A stretch of DNA of 64,000 bases from Hyalangium gracile. GTDB taxonomy: Bacteria; Myxococcota; Myxococcia; Myxococcales; Myxococcaceae. The position numbers were made by a program, and so were the translations under genes. How positions within the stretch are numbered: position 1 is the first letter of the stretch; each line of letters starts with the position of its first letter. The stretch is taken from NCBI RefSeq assembly GCF_020103725.1, contig NZ_JAHXBG010000015.1, forward strand, positions 186,001 through 250,000, read 5' to 3'. Positions 30,895 to 39,739 of the stretch are shown in pieces. The notes beneath the pieces were generated by a model. It made no database searches, was not told the origin of the DNA, and worked only from the letters and a program-made list of their open reading frames with translations.

Positions 30895-31941
30895 TCAGAC
30901 GATCCAGCCTCCGCCGAGCACGCGGTCCCGATCGTAGACCACGGCGGCCTGTCCTGGCGTCACCGCTCGCGCCGGCTCGTCGAGCTTCACGGAGACCAGC
31001 CCGTGGGGGGAGATCTCCACGCGCCCGGGAGCGCCCGCGTGGCGGTGGCGGATGCGAACCTCGACGGGCTGGTCCGCCGGCGGCGGTGCATCCACCCAGT
31101 GCGGCTGAAGCAGCCCGAACGAGTCTCGCCCCACGGCGGTGGCGGAGCCGACGACGACGCGGTTCGTCTCGGGCTCGATGCGCTGGACGTAGCGGACCTC
31201 TCCGCCTCCGAGGTTCAGCCCGCGCCGCTGGCCGACGGTGAAGCGGTGGATACCGCCGTGGGTGCCGAGCACCTGGCCCTCGGTGTCGACGATCTCACCT
31301 GCGGGCTGGGGCCCGGCCACCTTCTCCACGAAGCCCGCGTAGTCGCCATCCGGCACGAAGCAGATCTCCATGCTCTCCGGCTTCTGGCTGGTGGGCAGGT
31401 GGTGGCGCTCGGCCACGGCGCGGACCTCGGCCTTGGTCATGTCTCCGACGGGGAAGAGGATGTCGCGCAGCTCGCTCTGGCCGAGCGTGAAGAGGAAGTA
31501 GCTCTGGTCCTTGGCGAGATCCCGCGCGCGGCGCAGGACGTAGCGATCGTCCTGCTGCTCGACGCGGGCGTAGTGGCCGGTGGCGAGCCGGGCGCCCAGC
31601 GCGCGGGCCCGCTTGAGCAGGAAGTTGAACTTCACGTCCCGGTTGCAGGCCACGCAGGGGATGGGCGTGCGGCCGCCGAGGTAGGACTGGACGAAGGGGC
31701 TGATGACGCGGTCCTTGAAGATCTCCTCGGCGTTGGCCACGTAGAAGGGAATGCCGAGCGTCTGGGCGACGGCCCGCGCGTCATCGATGTCATCGGGGCT
31801 GCAGCAGCTGCCACACTGGGCCTTGCCCTCGTAGGACCAGACCCGCAGGGTGATGCCGATCACCTCGTGACCCTGCTCCTTGAGGAGCGCGGCGGCAGCC
31901 GAGGAGTCCACCCCACCGCTCATGGCAACGACGACTCGCAT
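30895..31941 (-). CDS. mnmA: tRNA-specific 2-thiouridylase MnmA
   Basis: 348 residues. It adds sulfur at U34 of tRNAs for Lys, Glu and Gln. The PP-loop is [13 protein letters not shown] at the N-terminus; the catalytic cysteines lie in [13 protein letters not shown] and [11 protein letters not shown]. The ATG giving [10 protein letters not shown] is preferred, with AGGAAGG upstream. The extra CGSCCSPDD near residue 45 holds more cysteines, often seen in this family. Confidence 0.95.
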
Positions 31942-32040
31942 GACATCCTTCCTACACACCCACAGGCTGGGACGAGGGTTTAGCGCCCCTGTGCTCCACC
32001 GGGAAGTGGGGAACTCTGGGTCCTCATTCCCCGGACGGGT

Positions 32041-33309
32041 TCAGCGCCCCTTCCCTGCCTGCCAGGTTCGCAGCAGTTCCTTCAGCTTCTCGGGCTGGTT
32101 GAGAGCAGGCTCATCGAGCACGGTCTCGACGAGGTACCGGGTGGCCTCGCCCACGATGGGAGAGGGCCCGACGCCGAGGGTGGCCATGATGTCCCCGCCC
32201 GTGAGCGCCAGTTCCTTCGCGCTGAGCGGGGGCTTCGCGGCGGCCAGGGCGCGCAGCCGGTCCTGGAGCTTCAGGAAGTCCGGGAGGCGATCGGGTGCGC
32301 GGACCTGGATGCGGGCATGGGCGACCGCGAGCAAGGGCTCGAGCTGCCCGAGCCCTACCCGGGCGAGCAGGCGTCGGAGCGCCGGATCCGCGTCCGCGAA
32401 GCGCTTCTCGAGGGCCGCGTGCTCGACGAGGAGCCCCATCAGGTCGGCGACCTTGTTGGGGAACTTGAGCCGCATGCCGATGTCCCGGGCCTGGGGGCCG
32501 GTGACGAGATCGGCAAGCAGGGAGGCCAGCCGGATCTCGACCTCGGCCGGAGCCCCATGGGCGGCGGCGCGGGCCAGACGCGCGGCCTCGGCATCGGCTC
32601 GGGCCAGCTCGGGGAGGAAGACCTCCAGGAGCCCGGTCTCCGCCAGGAGCACGATGCCGGACTCGGCGCGCGGAGAGAGGAGCAGCTTGACGAGCTCCTC
32701 GCGGACGCGCTCGAGGGCGACCTTGCGGAACACGGGGAGCGTCGGCGGGATGGCGGCCCGGGTGGCGGACTCGAGCGTGAAGCCGAGCACGGCGGCGAAG
32801 CGCACGGCGCGCAAGGGGCGCAGGCCGTCCTCGGAGAAGCGCTCGTGGGCGTCCCGGACGCAGCGGATGACACGGGCCTGGAGGTCTGCCTGGCCACCGA
32901 ACGGGTCCACGATCTCCTTGCTGATGGGATCGTAGGCCATCGCGTTGATGGTGAAGTCCCGGCGCGAGAGGTCCTCGGTAATGTCGCTCTCGAACTTGAC
33001 GGAGCTGGGGCGGCGGCCGTCGTGGTAGTCGCCCTCGCTGCGGAAGGTGGTGACCTCCACGTGGGTGCCGCCGATGACGACGGTGACGGTGCCGTGCTGG
33101 ATGCCGGTGGGGATGACCTTCTTGAACGCGCCCTGGACCTCATGGGGGTGGGCGCTGGTGGTCACGTCGAAGTCCTTGGGAGGAACGCCTCGGACCATGT
33201 CGCGGACGCAGCCGCCGACGAGGAATACGGCGAACCCCAGCTCGCGGAGGCGGCGGAGGACATCGAGGACCGGGCGCGGGATGTCCGCGTTGTGGAGGTT
33301 CGCGAGCAT
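32041..33309 (-). CDS. CCA tRNA nucleotidyltransferase / poly(A) polymerase family
   Basis: 422 residues of class II polymerase beta-like nucleotidyltransferases. LVGGCVRDMVRGVPPKDFDV holds the GG and DxD motifs; RRDFTINAMAYDP is the second conserved motif and the helical C-terminal body follows. It either adds CCA to tRNA 3' ends or polyadenylates RNA; the family is hard to split by eye. The neighbouring tRNA-Arg gene lacks an encoded CCA, so a CCA-adding enzyme is needed in this cell. Confidence 0.9.
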   Translation of the reverse strand: MLANLHNADIPRPVLDVLRRLRELGFAVFLVGGCVRDMVRGVPPKDFDVTTSAHPHEVQGAFKKVIPTGIQHGTVTVVIGGTHVEVTTFRSEGDYHDGRRPSSVKFESDITEDLSRRDFTINAMAYDPISKEIVDPFGGQADLQARVIRCVRDAHERFSEDGLRPLRAVRFAAVLGFTLESATRAAIPPTLPVFRKVALERVREELVKLLLSPRAESGIVLLAETGLLEVFLPELARADAEAARLARAAAHGAPAEVEIRLASLLADLVTGPQARDIGMRLKFPNKVADLMGLLVEHAALEKRFADADPALRRLLARVGLGQLEPLLAVAHARIQVRAPDRLPDFLKLQDRLRALAAAKPPLSAKELALTGGDIMATLGVGPSPIVGEATRYLVETVLDEPALNQPEKLKELLRTWQAGKGR

Positions 33310-33333
33310 CGGCGCACTTCGGAGAAAAAGGAG

Positions 33334-33407
33334 TGGCCCCGGCTGGAATCGAACCAGCGGCCTGCGGTTTAGGAAACCGCCGCTCTATCCAACTGAGCTA
33401 CGGGACC
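33334..33407 (-). tRNA. tRNA-Arg, anticodon CCT
   Basis: 74-nt cloverleaf on the minus strand. The acceptor stem GGTCCCG pairs with CGGGGCC (one G-T), the D arm is GCTCAGTTGGATAGAGC, the anticodon arm GCGGT-TTCCTAA-ACCGC gives CCT, and the T arm is GCTGG-TTCGATT-CCAGC. CCA is not encoded. Confidence 0.96.
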
Positions 33408-33420
33408 GGACGACGAGCGG

Positions 33421-33448
33421 TTTATAGCAGGTCGACTGCTGCGCGCAA
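33421..33448 (-). promoter_or_regulatory. sigma70-like promoter of tRNA-Arg
   Basis: On the minus strand TTGCGC, 16 bp, TATAAA, ending 13 bp before the mature tRNA 5' end. Position and -10 quality fit a stable-RNA promoter. Confidence 0.65.
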
Positions 33449-33593
33449 CGAAAGCCGGGCCCTCCCACAGGAGACGTTCAGGCCTCATCAGGTCGCCTAC
33501 CCGACGAAGCTGGAGGCACAGGAGCCCCGGAGCGCCATCCTCCCTGGATCGACGTTTTCGTATGCTGACCCCTCCCCTTCCGGAAGGCGTCTC

Positions 33594-34952
33594 GTGACAG
33601 CACGGCTGACCATCGCCGCTCTTCTGCTGGCCCTGTCCACCACCTGCACCACCTCCACCGCGCGCGAGATACGCCTCGACACGGGGCAAGGCCCGCTCCG
33701 CCTCCACCTCCCCCGTGCGGATGAAGTCATGCCGGTGGAACTGGAGCAGGAGGAGTTCATCAAGGCCATCACGAAGGAGCTCCGGCAGAGGCGCCCCCCG
33801 GCCGATCCCGAGAAGGCCGCGAGGGAGCTGTTCGGAGTCCCCCCACGCAGTGGCTGGTACCGATACACCCAGAGCGACGGGGTCGTTCCGCTGGATGCGC
33901 CGCCCCCGGCTGCGGAGTGGGCCGAGGTGGCTGCGCGAGTGACGCAGGAGTATTTGCAGTTCTGCGAGGCACTGGGGAAGCCCGGGGATTGCCGCAAGGC
34001 GCTGATGAACAACCCGGTCCTTACCGGGGATGGCCGCTACGCCCTGGCCATGTCCTTCGCCATCGAAGAAATCGTTCCGGAGATGATGCAGTCCTTCAAG
34101 GACATGGCCGACCCGGAGGCACTCAAGGCCTCGCTCTACTGGACGATGGCCATCTATGCCGCGATGTGGCTGGCGCCCGAGCCGGTGTTCTCCAAGGGAC
34201 TGGCGACGGTCCTTACGGCCACCTTCGTCTGCTACATCGGGGTGGACACCTTCTGGACACTCATCCAGGGCTTCAGGCGGATGGTCGAGGAGTTGGATCA
34301 CTCCACCTCGTTCGCGGCGATCCGCGCGTCCGGCAGGAAGTACGGCCAGGTGATGGGGAAGAATGCGGCGAGGGCATTTGCCCTGCTGCTGGCGGCCGCC
34401 ATCGGCCAGACGGCCGCCAGCTTCTCAGCCAAGGTGCCCACGCTGCCCGGCTCGGCTCAAGCGTCAGCCGCAGGCGCGGCGCGGGTGGGAGTCCGACTGA
34501 CCGAGGTGGCGCAGGTGGAAGCCGTGACTGTCACTGCCGACACGATCACCATCGCCCTGGCCCCCAACGCGGTCGCCGCGACGGCTCAGAGCTTGAGCGG
34601 TGCAGCTTCCAGCCCGGTAGACATGGAGGGGCATGATCACCACATCGCCACGGATAAGTGGACCGAGGCCACCCACAGCGGTGGTCCGTGGACGCCGAAG
34701 TTCCAGAGAATCTTTGATCGGGCAGGCATGTCGCTGAACGACCCGGCAAACAAGGTCCGCGTCAAGGGCCACCAAGGACCGCACCCACAGGAGTACCACG
34801 AGCGGATCTACAAGCGACTGGATGAAGTGACCAAGGGCTGTAGCAGCATCGAACAGTGCCGGAAGGTGCTGACGGCGGAACTCGAACGGTTGGCAAAACA
34901 GATCTCGACGGAGGGCACCTCTCTCAACAAGCTGGTGACCCGGAGGCAGTGA
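33594..34952 (+). CDS. SitA-like polymorphic toxin with C-terminal AHH nuclease domain
   Basis: 452 residues from a GTG with GGAAGG upstream. N-terminus: VTARLTIAALLLALSTTC, a lipoprotein-like signal with Cys18, but the -1 Thr is unusual for a lipobox. Then comes the conserved start seen in myxobacterial SitA-type lipoproteins, REIRLDTGQGPLRLHLPR. Residues 175-225 and 255-275 are hydrophobic (MAIYAAMWLAPEPVFSKGLA). The C-terminus is an AHH-type HNH/Endo VII nuclease: HHIATDKW at 349, SLNDPANKVRV, GHQGPHPQEYHERIY. SitA toxins pass between kin cells by outer-membrane exchange. The next gene is the likely immunity protein. Confidence 0.82.
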   Translation: MTARLTIAALLLALSTTCTTSTAREIRLDTGQGPLRLHLPRADEVMPVELEQEEFIKAITKELRQRRPPADPEKAARELFGVPPRSGWYRYTQSDGVVPLDAPPPAAEWAEVAARVTQEYLQFCEALGKPGDCRKALMNNPVLTGDGRYALAMSFAIEEIVPEMMQSFKDMADPEALKASLYWTMAIYAAMWLAPEPVFSKGLATVLTATFVCYIGVDTFWTLIQGFRRMVEELDHSTSFAAIRASGRKYGQVMGKNAARAFALLLAAAIGQTAASFSAKVPTLPGSAQASAAGAARVGVRLTEVAQVEAVTVTADTITIALAPNAVAATAQSLSGAASSPVDMEGHDHHIATDKWTEATHSGGPWTPKFQRIFDRAGMSLNDPANKVRVKGHQGPHPQEYHERIYKRLDEVTKGCSSIEQCRKVLTAELERLAKQISTEGTSLNKLVTRRQ

Positions 34953-34972
34953 CGGAGAGGACCATCATCCCG

Positions 34973-36214
34973 ATGAAGTATTTCGAGCTGTCCCAAGAGG
35001 TTGAGGGCTCTGAGGGATGGGATCTTGGCAGCCCTACGGATCCACAGGGCCGGGAGGTAGAAAACCCATGGATGTTCAGAGAGGGCATGCCGGTCCCGGA
35101 CCCGGGACGATGGATGATTCCCATCGGCCGTCCGGGCAGGGCTCTCGACTTCACCCTCGCAGGCTTCAGCATCCCGGTCGTTCACGTCAGGGTGGCTTCC
35201 GTCTTTACCGAGCTGGCCCCACGTGACGTTCAGGTTCTTCCGGTGGACATCCAAGGTCAGCCAGACCAGTTCTGCATCCTCGTTGTCACACGGCTTGTCC
35301 GGTGTATCGATGACAAGGCCTCGGAGGAGGTGGAGTACTGGACGCCAGAAGATGGAAGACCCGAGAAAGTCGGGCAGTACCGAGACGTGTATGGCATGCG
35401 CATCGACCCCTCGAAGGTAGGTGACGCCAAGATCTTCCGGACCTGGGGCTGGACGGTGGCGCTCATCGTCTCCGAGGACATCAAGCAGGCGCTGGAGCGC
35501 GCGGGCGTCACGGGCGTGAAGTTCAAGGAGGTCACCGGCCCGAGTTCCATCAGTCCGGCGGAGCGTGAACGAAACCAGCGTCTCATCGAGCTGCGGAAGC
35601 AGACGGACGCCGCCCGCGAAGCCTTCTGGCGCACCCTGGGAAGACTGGACGAGGAAGCCATCATCCCTATCGTCGTGGGTGGCTCATGGCCCGCCCGACG
35701 CCAGGTCTGGCGCATCATCCATCGTCCAGGTGGGCGCACCCTGCTGGTGACGGACGGACTCTCGGACTTCTTCGTGGACCGCCCCGAGCCGTCCGTGGGC
35801 TTCGGCCTGGAGTTGGCCCTGGAGACAAATGAGCCCCTCCAGGAGGCCGAGAAGAGCTGGCCCCTGCTGCTCCTGGAGCGGGTGGCGGATGAAGTGGCGG
35901 AGCACGAGCACGTTCGCGAGAAGATGAAGACGGGCTTGATGTCCATGGAGGTCTCCGGCAAGGGCATGCCCCAGTCACTCGTCACCCAGAATGGCAGGGT
36001 GGGTGTGCTGCTGGGCATGGAGCCAAGCGCGCTCCCCCGGGACTTCACCATGCCTTCCGGGGAGGTGCGGCTCGTTACCGTCAAGGCGCTGCTGCCGACA
36101 GAGCTGGCCTACCTCCTGGAGCACGGCAAGAACGGTCGGGACGAGCTGCTTCGGCGATTCGACGCGGCGGGCCACGGACACCTGTCCCTCGTAGGGCGAA
36201 GCCCGGTGGTGTAA
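34973..36214 (+). CDS. two-domain immunity protein: Imm11-like plus SUFU-like
   Basis: 413 residues, 20 bp after the toxin stop. The ATG follows a GGAGAGG. Residues 1-190 resemble Imm11 (the MXAN_0049/DUF1629 immunity family): MKYFELSQEVEGSEGWDLG, PWMFREGMPV, RTWGWTVALIVSEDIKQALE, GVTGVKFKEV. Residues 200-413 resemble the bacterial SUFU domain: RTLLVTDGLSDFF, GFGLELALETNEPL, GRVGVLLGM, GEVRLVTVKALLPTELAYL. Both domains are known as immunity families of polymorphic toxins. No catalytic residues or membrane segments are seen. The Imm11 and SUFU calls are from memory of family patterns. Confidence 0.78.
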   Translation: MKYFELSQEVEGSEGWDLGSPTDPQGREVENPWMFREGMPVPDPGRWMIPIGRPGRALDFTLAGFSIPVVHVRVASVFTELAPRDVQVLPVDIQGQPDQFCILVVTRLVRCIDDKASEEVEYWTPEDGRPEKVGQYRDVYGMRIDPSKVGDAKIFRTWGWTVALIVSEDIKQALERAGVTGVKFKEVTGPSSISPAERERNQRLIELRKQTDAAREAFWRTLGRLDEEAIIPIVVGGSWPARRQVWRIIHRPGGRTLLVTDGLSDFFVDRPEPSVGFGLELALETNEPLQEAEKSWPLLLLERVADEVAEHEHVREKMKTGLMSMEVSGKGMPQSLVTQNGRVGVLLGMEPSALPRDFTMPSGEVRLVTVKALLPTELAYLLEHGKNGRDELLRRFDAAGHGHLSLVGRSPVV

Positions 36215-37338: not shown

Positions 37339-38772
37339 ATGTACCGGGGCATGCCCACCCAGGCCCCCTTCCTGGCAGTGCTCACGCTGCTGTCGCTCTC
37401 AGGCCTGGCCCATGCCGAGCCCCCCAGGCTCGCGGCGGATGCGCCCGTCGCCTCGCCCGACTCCTCCACCCACGCGGGTGAAGTCACCGCCACGAACCCG
37501 ACGGAGCCGTCTCCCGTGCGGCGAACCTGGAACGCCGTGGGACAGGTGACGGGCATCAACGTGGCCGTGTGGACGCTGGACCGGTACATCCTGGGTCGCG
37601 AGTGGGCTCGCATCAGCCCCGACTCCTGGGAGCGCAACCTCCAGGAAGGCTTCGTCTGGGACCAGGACGACTTCGGCACCAACCAGTTCGCCCACCCCTA
37701 CCACGGCAGCCTCTACTACAACGCCGCGCGCTACCACGGCTTCGGCTATCTCGGCGCCAGCCTCCTCACCATCCTCGGCAGCCTCGAGTGGGAGCTGTTC
37801 GCCGAGACGGAGTACCCGTCCGCCAATGATCTCGCCAACACCAGCCTCGGCGGCATCGCCCTGGGCGAGGTCATGCACCGACTCTCCCTCCAGGTGCTCG
37901 ACAACCGCGCCCGGGGCACGCAGCGGATCGGTCGCGAGCTGCTCGGCGCGTTCCTGAGTCCCGCTCGCGGCTTCAACCGGCTCGTGGCCGGAGAGTCCTG
38001 GCGCATCAGCTCCACGACGTCCGAGCGCCGCGCTCCCCCCATCCGAGTCTCCACCCGGACGGGCTACCTGAAGCTCTCGGATGGCGACCCGATGACGCAC
38101 GGCTCGGATCAGCTCTTCGTGCAGGTCTCCTTCCTGTCCGGAGACCCCGTCTACGACGTCATCCGCGAGCCGTTCGATGCCTTCCAGGCCGCCGTGCAGT
38201 TCAACACCAACAAGGAATATCAGCTCATCAGCCACGCCGAGGTGCAGGCCACGCTCGCCACCACCCCGCTGGCGAGCACCGAGCACTCCCGGCTCGTGCT
38301 GGGGCTCATGCAGTACTTCTATTACACGAACATCCAGGCCTACTCGATTGGCGCCCAGTCCTTCAGCGCCAGCCTCCTCTACGGGCGTGAGTTCTCACCC
38401 GGTTCGGGGCTGCGCATGGGCCTCCATCTGCGTGGCGTGGTGCTCGGGAGCCTCTCCAGCGAGCACTCCCGATCCGTCGGCCGCGACTATGACTACGGCC
38501 CCGGCGTGGATCTCGCGCTCGAAGCCACGTATCAGCGCGGGCAGTGGGCGCTCGCCAGTGCCCAGCTGGACATGGCCTGGATGCACACCGTCAATGGTTC
38601 GATCAGCAACCACCTGGTCAGCGCCGGCCGGTTCCAGGTGGATGTCCCCGTCTACCGAGCCCTGGGCATGGGCCTGGGCGTCGTCGTCTTCCGCCGCGAC
38701 AGCTTCTACGAGGAGTTCGACGACACCACCCAGTACGCCTCGCAGTTCCGGGCGTTCATTTCGATGCACTGA
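37339..38772 (+). CDS. DUF3943 outer-membrane protein
   Basis: About 477 residues. The signal peptide ends near GLAHAEPP. The DUF3943 core is clear: WERNLQEGFVWDQDDFGTNQ, then HPYHGSLYYNAARYHGFGY and a Glu/Asn-rich active-looking stretch WELFAETEYPSANDLANT. The rest is a run of alternating strands, as in outer-membrane barrels, ending in an aromatic-rich strand (ASQFRAFISMH). Function is not known. The start is uncertain: ATG 37339, ATG 37351 or a GTG at 37315. Its end overlaps the convergent gene by 17 bp. Confidence 0.75.
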   Translation: MYRGMPTQAPFLAVLTLLSLSGLAHAEPPRLAADAPVASPDSSTHAGEVTATNPTEPSPVRRTWNAVGQVTGINVAVWTLDRYILGREWARISPDSWERNLQEGFVWDQDDFGTNQFAHPYHGSLYYNAARYHGFGYLGASLLTILGSLEWELFAETEYPSANDLANTSLGGIALGEVMHRLSLQVLDNRARGTQRIGRELLGAFLSPARGFNRLVAGESWRISSTTSERRAPPIRVSTRTGYLKLSDGDPMTHGSDQLFVQVSFLSGDPVYDVIREPFDAFQAAVQFNTNKEYQLISHAEVQATLATTPLASTEHSRLVLGLMQYFYYTNIQAYSIGAQSFSASLLYGREFSPGSGLRMGLHLRGVVLGSLSSEHSRSVGRDYDYGPGVDLALEATYQRGQWALASAQLDMAWMHTVNGSISNHLVSAGRFQVDVPVYRALGMGLGVVVFRRDSFYEEFDDTTQYASQFRAFISMH

Positions 38773-39616
38773 CCCCGGGGCCACCGTCCGGAGCCTGCTC
38801 CAGCCGCACGTCCGCGATCACCGGGTAGTGGTCGGAGGCCTCCACCCGCGGCACCCGACTCGCCAGCGGCGTGAAGGCATCCGAGGCCAGCACGTAGTCG
38901 ATGCGCACCGACGGCAGGAACGGCAACGGCAGCTGGAACGTGCCGGAGGGCCCCGAGCCACTCGCGTCGAAGACATCCACCATCCGTCGCCGCAGCAACC
39001 TCACCGTCAGCGAGTCCGGCCCGTCGTTGAAGTCCCCCATCAGGATCCTGGGCCGCGAGTCCCTCTCGAGCAACCCGGCAATGAGCACACCCTGGCGCAG
39101 GCGGATGCGGCTCCGGAACGGGGAGTGGATGAGGTGCGTCAGGTAGACGCTGACCTCGCGCCCCTCCACCCGAAGGACCGCGTGCACCACCGTCCGAGGC
39201 TCCCCACCCTCGTTCACCGGTAGCGCGTACTGCGCCAACGACTCCACCGGAAAGCGCGACAGCAGGGCGATGCCATAGGCGCCGCCGTACATGTCTCGCG
39301 TCCGGAAGTGCCCGTGGTACGACAACCCCACGCGCTCGGCGAGCACCGCCGCCTGATCCAGTCTTCCCGCGCGGCGGCTGCGGCAGTCCACCTCCTGCAG
39401 CGCGACGATGTCGGGCCGAGCCGAGCGGATCACCTCCACCACATCATCCAGCCCCCTCGTGGCGGACTTGATGTTGTAGGTCATCAAGCGCAGGTGCCCG
39501 GACTCGCGGGCCTCCTCCGGCGCACGTGCTCCCGCGGCGTGCCCCGGCTGAGCTGTCGTCGCGCAGGCGAGCGTCGTCGCGAGTAGCGCAAGCGGGATGA
39601 GCGAGGCGAGTCTCAT
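38756..39616 (-). CDS. endonuclease/exonuclease/phosphatase-family lipoprotein
   Basis: 286 residues. The signal is MRLASLIPLALLATTLAC with Cys18 in a usable lipobox (TLAC). The EEP fold is shown by RLMTYNIKS, IVALQEVDCRS, the central GIALLSRFP, LMGDFNDGPDS and the catalytic ASDHYPVIADV. Members cleave phosphodiesters or phosphoesters of nucleic acids, sphingomyelin or inositol lipids; the substrate here is open. The ATG is chosen for GAGAGGTG upstream. Confidence 0.85.
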   Translation of the reverse strand: MRLASLIPLALLATTLACATTAQPGHAAGARAPEEARESGHLRLMTYNIKSATRGLDDVVEVIRSARPDIVALQEVDCRSRRAGRLDQAAVLAERVGLSYHGHFRTRDMYGGAYGIALLSRFPVESLAQYALPVNEGGEPRTVVHAVLRVEGREVSVYLTHLIHSPFRSRIRLRQGVLIAGLLERDSRPRILMGDFNDGPDSLTVRLLRRRMVDVFDASGSGPSGTFQLPLPFLPSVRIDYVLASDAFTPLASRVPRVEASDHYPVIADVRLEQAPDGGPGVSASK

Positions 39617-39739
39617 GAGGCACCTCTCCGATCGGCCTCGAGGCTCTCGCAAGGTAACGCAGCCGCGCAAGCAGGCGAGCGTACCCTTTTGTCGGATTCG
39701 CACCGGCTCCGAGCCCGGCGCGAGCGCCCAGCCGCGTCC

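Follow-up and report, generated by a model that had tools for sequence, protein, structure and literature searches.

Toxins of the SitA5 type are lipoproteins that are transferred from cell to cell by outer membrane exchange, while the cognate SitI stays behind (PMC8546572), and in Myxococcus xanthus the SitAI5 family comprises eight ahh-imm11 loci (PMC12077181). In this species Imm11 alone has been proven to act against AHH nucleases (PMC12077131, PMC12077181). The prototype is MXAN_0049 (PDB 6a4c), a solo Imm11 protein that lacks a SUFU domain; its immunity function has been proven experimentally (PMC12077181), and its toxin, the AHH nuclease MXAN_0050, is delivered by a T6SS. A fusion of the two immunity families is an already known architecture: in Zhang et al. 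2012 the entry for Imm11 reads ‘fused to SuFu on occasions’, and SuFu is recorded together with Tox-AHH for delta-proteobacteria (PMC3482391, Table 3). That one nuclease can be met by two immunity modules has been demonstrated for Tde5/Tdi5a/Tdi5b (PMC13392607). Tde5 is a beta-beta-alpha-metal DNase that is blocked simultaneously by two structurally unrelated modules, which resembles the present case, AHH being a nuclease of the HNH/EndoVII type; Tdi5a and Tdi5b, however, are two separate Pseudomonas genes, and the paper makes no mention of Imm11 or SUFU (PMC13392607).

The locus described here lies in a window of 64,000 nucleotides of the Hyalangium gracile genome (contig NZ_JAHXBG010000015.1), which is the whole stretch that was analysed. 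It resembles the Myxococcus SitAI5 loci (PMC5562445, PMC8546572, PMC12077181) in having a SitA5 escort with an AHH domain and Imm11 directly downstream, but differs from them in that the immunity protein has an added SUFU domain. Term searches in Sit papers returned no mention of SUFU, and a literature search on Imm11, with most subscription journals outside its reach, returned no later study of the Imm11-SuFu fusion. New here are the link to SitA5, a census of the fusions, the exact join of the two domains and the pattern of a variable core. Such loci matter for the problem of how a toxin can evolve when an immunity protein that lags behind would mean death for its owner. The features of the locus are the following.

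30895-31959, minus strand: tRNA_Me_trans (MnmA-like) enzyme, a housekeeping gene beside the toxin locus
32041-33309, minus strand: nucleotidyltransferase of the poly(A) polymerase/CCA-adding type, also a housekeeping gene beside the toxin locus
33333-33407, minus strand: tRNA-Arg (anticodon CCT), immediately preceding the toxin gene (ARAGORN)
33594-34952, plus strand: sitA5-AHH, a SitA5-type toxin gene with a GTG start (open frame, start-codon reading, NCBIfam/Pfam)
33621-34418, plus strand: SitA5 escort domain, forming the conserved backbone; its C-terminal part has GC3 0.91 (NF050093, residues 97-362 in the frame that begins at 33333)
34605-34904, plus strand: AHH nuclease domain (HNH/EndoVII superfamily), basic, GC3 0.77 (PF14412, residues 425-524 of the same frame)
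34973-36214, plus strand: Imm11-SUFU fusion immunity gene, sitI5-like, 413 aa (ORF, Pfam, AlphaFold2 model)
34973-35533, plus strand: Imm11 domain, residues 1-187, ending in GVKFKEV at the exact stop point of solo Imm11; acidic, pI 4.8 (Pfam, fold, pI)
35534-35635, plus strand: linker and long connecting helix, TGPSSISPAERERNQRLIELRKQTDAAREAFWRT, with helix 195-221 in the model (AlphaFold2 model, join comparison)
35588-36211, plus strand: SUFU domain, residues ~206-413, GC3 0.85; conservation 75-95% at most loci of the genus (Pfam, fold)

The immunity frame runs from an ATG at 34973 to a stop codon at 36212-36214. The initial annotation had taken it for an Imm11-like N-terminal part joined to a SUFU-like C-terminal part, and the profile searches confirm this. 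In the whole protein, Pfam matches Imm11 (PF07791) at residues 62-187 with 40.4 bits (cut-off 22.1, E 2.5e-10) and SUFU (PF05076) at residues 256-405 with 33.2 bits (cut-off 25, E 6.1e-8), and each half scores slightly higher in isolation than within the full-length protein. Neither Pfam nor NCBIfam has a family model that spans the 413 residues, and no NCBIfam model matches the protein at all. Of the two outcomes that would have spoken against the annotation, a profile over the whole length or a half failing to match its family, neither was found. The two separate folds that the annotation proposed to look for also appear in an AlphaFold2 model (61 homologues, mean pLDDT 91.9, pTM 0.74), where helix 195-221 joins two domains. 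Residues 1-192 share the fold of MXAN_0049 in a fold search with the model (Z 14.3, 176 aligned residues, 25% identity), and residues ~206-413 that of human SUFU (1m1l, the N-terminal domain, and 4bl8; Z 15.1) and of the Neisseria SUFU homologue 3k5j (Z 14.4), where the fold stands alone or in another context. The identity of the SUFU half to these structures is 13-18%, and a sequence search with this half alone against solved structures found nothing, although the fold search did match. The invariant residues G262, S264, E280 and E284 fit the GxS motif and the two acidic positions among the conserved SuFu residues of Zhang et al. (GxS, E, E, DxxR; PMC3482391), while a DxxR motif was not located. 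With two different immunity domains in one polypeptide the protein belongs to the polyimmunity proteins, which are defined by at least two such domains. The usual absence of a toxin from their operons is a typical rather than a defining trait, and in the window a toxin lies directly upstream.

The longest open frame of this toxin begins at 33333, inside the minus-strand tRNA-Arg, and GTG 33594 is the likelier true start; GGAAGG is found a few bases upstream of it, and the N-terminus, TARLTIAALLLALSTTC, resembles a lipoprotein signal when read by eye. On the frame 33333-34949 the SitA5_escort model NF050093 scores 307 bits (cut-off 160, E 1.1e-91), and the AHH domain PF14412 is matched with E 8.3e-23. 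Only 20 bases separate the toxin stop from the ATG of the immunity gene, which places Imm11 directly downstream of the AHH gene. Both the two-domain architecture and the role given to the protein from the start, immunity to the toxin next to it, are supported. No second toxin was recognised among the open reading frames around the locus. A scan for Sigma-70-type promoters, which fits myxobacteria poorly, found none. The toxin-immunity pair adjoins the tRNA-Arg (CCT) and may occupy a site of integration at this tRNA. At 38756-39703 the minus strand of the window encodes an Exo_endo_phos family protein whose N-terminus resembles a signal.

Both domains are known as stand-alone immunity families, as the annotation also stated: SuFu was described as such by Zhang et al. 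2012, and Imm11 occurs solo behind AHH in the genome of the window. Of the 15 AHH domains in this genome, at least 13 are followed by an Imm11 gene, and among these SUFU is fused only at the window locus. Most AHH toxins of the genome thus have Imm11 only, which means that immunity to AHH resides in Imm11, and that SUFU is an optional extra rather than a guard against some visible second toxin. The join itself agrees with this: solo Imm11 proteins end in KFxEV, and the fusions continue with TGPS at the very same point, so that Imm11 needs no SUFU to be complete. On the Imm11 tree the fused and solo forms are interleaved, with seven changes of which at least three are forced by strong branches, and the escort and AHH trees, which rest on few columns, each force at least two; there has thus been more than one gain or loss of SUFU. 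This domain is also dispensable, because Imm11 alone suffices for sister AHH toxins whose escorts are closely related. At another locus of the same genome (L019, 3165-5002, plus strand) one AHH toxin is followed by two Imm11 genes.

A search with the SUFU half, a query that reaches close relatives and would overlook SUFU fusions at a greater distance, detected it in 45 of the 96 genomes of Myxococcaceae and nowhere outside this family among 195 genomes of the phylum. In phage records there was no homologue, and plasmids gave partial single-domain matches only. We read 110 distinct loci, and in 100 of them, all Myxococcaceae, the Imm11-SUFU frame is intact; with about 100 intact copies the fusion is no frame accident. 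The great majority (82/100) stand directly behind an intact AHH toxin. By our own classification the other 18 comprise loci where AHH is cropped or misread (2), broken or frame-shifted (3) or present as a C-terminal remnant (3), and ten where no AHH was found (L039, L043, L066, L080, L090, L126, L129-L131 and L169), among which L129-L131 have the same kind of upstream gene and come from one genus. All 11 fused-locus toxins that were scored, from the window and ten other loci, have a SitA5 escort. This list of architectures and neighbours, which the annotation had called for, does not bear out its suggestion of protection against a second toxin type, as the window has no such toxin and none of the 100 intact fusions lies behind a toxin other than AHH. 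Stand-alone relatives of the SUFU clade, 43-48% identical, occur at L162 (2980-3639) and L163 (2941-3657), both on the plus strand, with no recognised toxin or Imm11 adjacent.

Divergence is unevenly distributed over these loci. In several pairs of paralogues the DNA identity is ~90-99% in the escort, falls to 47-55% at the end of AHH and the start of Imm11, and is 91-97% in SUFU; the hypervariable part of the toxin is its C-terminal 60 aa. We formed 33 disjoint pairs of loci with the nearest escorts; dS, uncorrected for composition, had a median of 0.20 in the escort, 1.27 in the AHH C-terminus, 0.91 and 0.69 in the N- and C-terminal halves of Imm11, and 0.24-0.38 in SUFU, and SUFU was below the Imm11 N-half in 29 of the 33 (sign test, p 1.1e-5). 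When pairs were instead chosen for a similar Imm11 N-half, the AHH C-terminus was similar too (0.13, in 19 non-independent pairs). Disjoint pairs nearest by AHH C-terminus or by Imm11 N-half gave no sharp contrast between cassette and flank, so that the cassette may not move freely; this counts against the explanation that we prefer. GC3 has the same profile, with 0.90 in the escort, 0.74-0.75 in AHH and the Imm11 N-half and 0.87 in SUFU, the last being higher than the Imm11 N-half in 75 of 76 loci; in the window the two halves of Imm11 have 0.70 and 0.82, and the GC content dips at 34500-35500. Constraint on codon usage may be part of both the dS and the GC3 contrasts, and codon bias could explain some of the former, but not the contrast in protein identity. 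The median pI is 9.1 for AHH, 4.9 for Imm11 and 6.0 for SUFU.

These comparisons suggest a specificity cassette made up of Imm11 and the C-terminus of AHH, with SUFU as part of the conserved ends. Since the two members of the cassette vary jointly between a conserved escort and a conserved SUFU, it is probably not SUFU that sets specificity. Many of its residues are nevertheless invariant across ~60 divergent sequences and its median pN/pS is 0.20-0.29, so SUFU is under protein-level selection and hence functional. Two other tests were set aside. Whole-domain distance correlations of the Mantel type are unsuited for finding the partner of AHH, because both halves correlate with it through shared ancestry, and in partial correlations (Imm11 0.27, SUFU 0.39) Imm11 is not singled out; a dS comparison on pairs chosen by SUFU similarity was biased, and was redone with pairs chosen by escort, AHH and Imm11 and with disjoint pairs. 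One locus, L164 (295-3801, minus strand), has a SitA5 escort with a different C-terminus (LTEHAQESLRRHGF...) and then a presumed immunity protein of 175 aa, both without a Pfam match. Downstream of this new cassette are a 48-aa remnant of an AHH C-terminus and a 208-aa SUFU half without Imm11.

The explanation that we prefer, and to which we would give an even chance, is that the protein confers immunity to a SitA5-AHH kin-discrimination toxin, with Imm11 blocking AHH and SUFU providing a second hold on this toxin that depends less on the allele. The escort domain would carry the AHH nuclease inward after outer membrane exchange between myxobacterial cells, where the acidic Imm11 half would bind and block the basic nuclease and determine which toxin allele is neutralised; homology and the co-variation with the AHH C-terminus point to this role, which is proven for the solo relative MXAN_0049. 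SUFU would be a conserved second module that SitA5-AHH loci may or may not have, by which a changed Imm11-AHH cassette could still be partly held. Its DNA, as the conserved 3' flank of the variable cassette, might also serve as a homology arm when AHH-Imm11 is exchanged, to judge from the divergence pattern. We lean towards the second grip because SUFU almost exclusively accompanies AHH toxins and because Tde5/Tdi5a/Tdi5b is a precedent, and the dual binding mode raised by the initial annotation is thereby a possible, and the preferred, reading. A bolder version, which we find doubtful, is an immunity protein with a variable part, Imm11, that is exchanged together with the AHH C-terminus, and a constant part, SUFU, that would hold AHH toxins of the SitA5 family whatever their allele and give residual or cross protection while new pairs evolve. 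SUFU might on the other hand do something else, given the stand-alone proteins without a toxin (L162, L163) and the ten fusions that lack one. In one rival reading Imm11 would be directed against the local AHH toxin and SUFU against a different toxin delivered by non-kin. The Imm11-SuFu polyimmunity proteins of Zhang et al. 2012 combine the same two families and are regarded as polyvalent, each capable of countering two or more toxins, and the range of toxins met by SuFu is wide (PMC3482391). The ten toxin-less fusions and a SUFU that is conserved regardless of the AHH-Imm11 allele would agree with this, but polyimmunity operons are usually free of toxins, whereas the fusion here nearly always has one AHH toxin in front of it, and in 110 loci no SUFU of this clade lies beside a non-AHH toxin, save the displaced remnant in L164. 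We consider such polyvalence unlikely.

It is likewise improbable, in our view, that SUFU has no contact with the toxin and is a passenger, a conserved 3' module at a preferred exchange boundary and perhaps a stabiliser of the protein. The variable core is indeed flanked by SUFU and the escort, both of low divergence, the trees show fused and solo forms interleaved, and L164 has received a new toxin-immunity cassette behind its escort, with the AHH remnant and the SUFU half left downstream. A mere DNA flank would however not need a conserved fold, and the invariant residues and the low pN/pS speak for selection on the protein. Very unlikely, finally, is a division of labour in which SUFU grips the constant SitA5 escort and Imm11 the variable nuclease. 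The divergence of SUFU follows that of the escort more closely (Spearman dS 0.56) than that of the AHH C-terminus (0.35-0.37), but shared ancestry of the backbone yields the same correlation, closely related escorts occur with solo Imm11, and no SitA5 toxin with another C-terminus was found to have an immunity protein with SUFU, the one in L164 being a remnant. If SUFU is a broad second hold while Imm11 varies, closely related escorts with and without SUFU form natural test pairs within one genus; if it is only a flank, the loci are still a clear example of an AHH-Imm11 cassette between two conserved ends.

At L103 (G026:C421) and its neighbour L091, three Imm11-SUFU loci stand in tandem on one contig with a spacing of ~2.5 kb, and the tandem fusions at L103 are almost identical in escort and SUFU and differ in their middle parts. 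The genome of the window also encodes a more typical SUFU protein of 239 aa (L017, 3467-4186, plus strand; 78 bits), and similar distant matches are found in several sister genomes.
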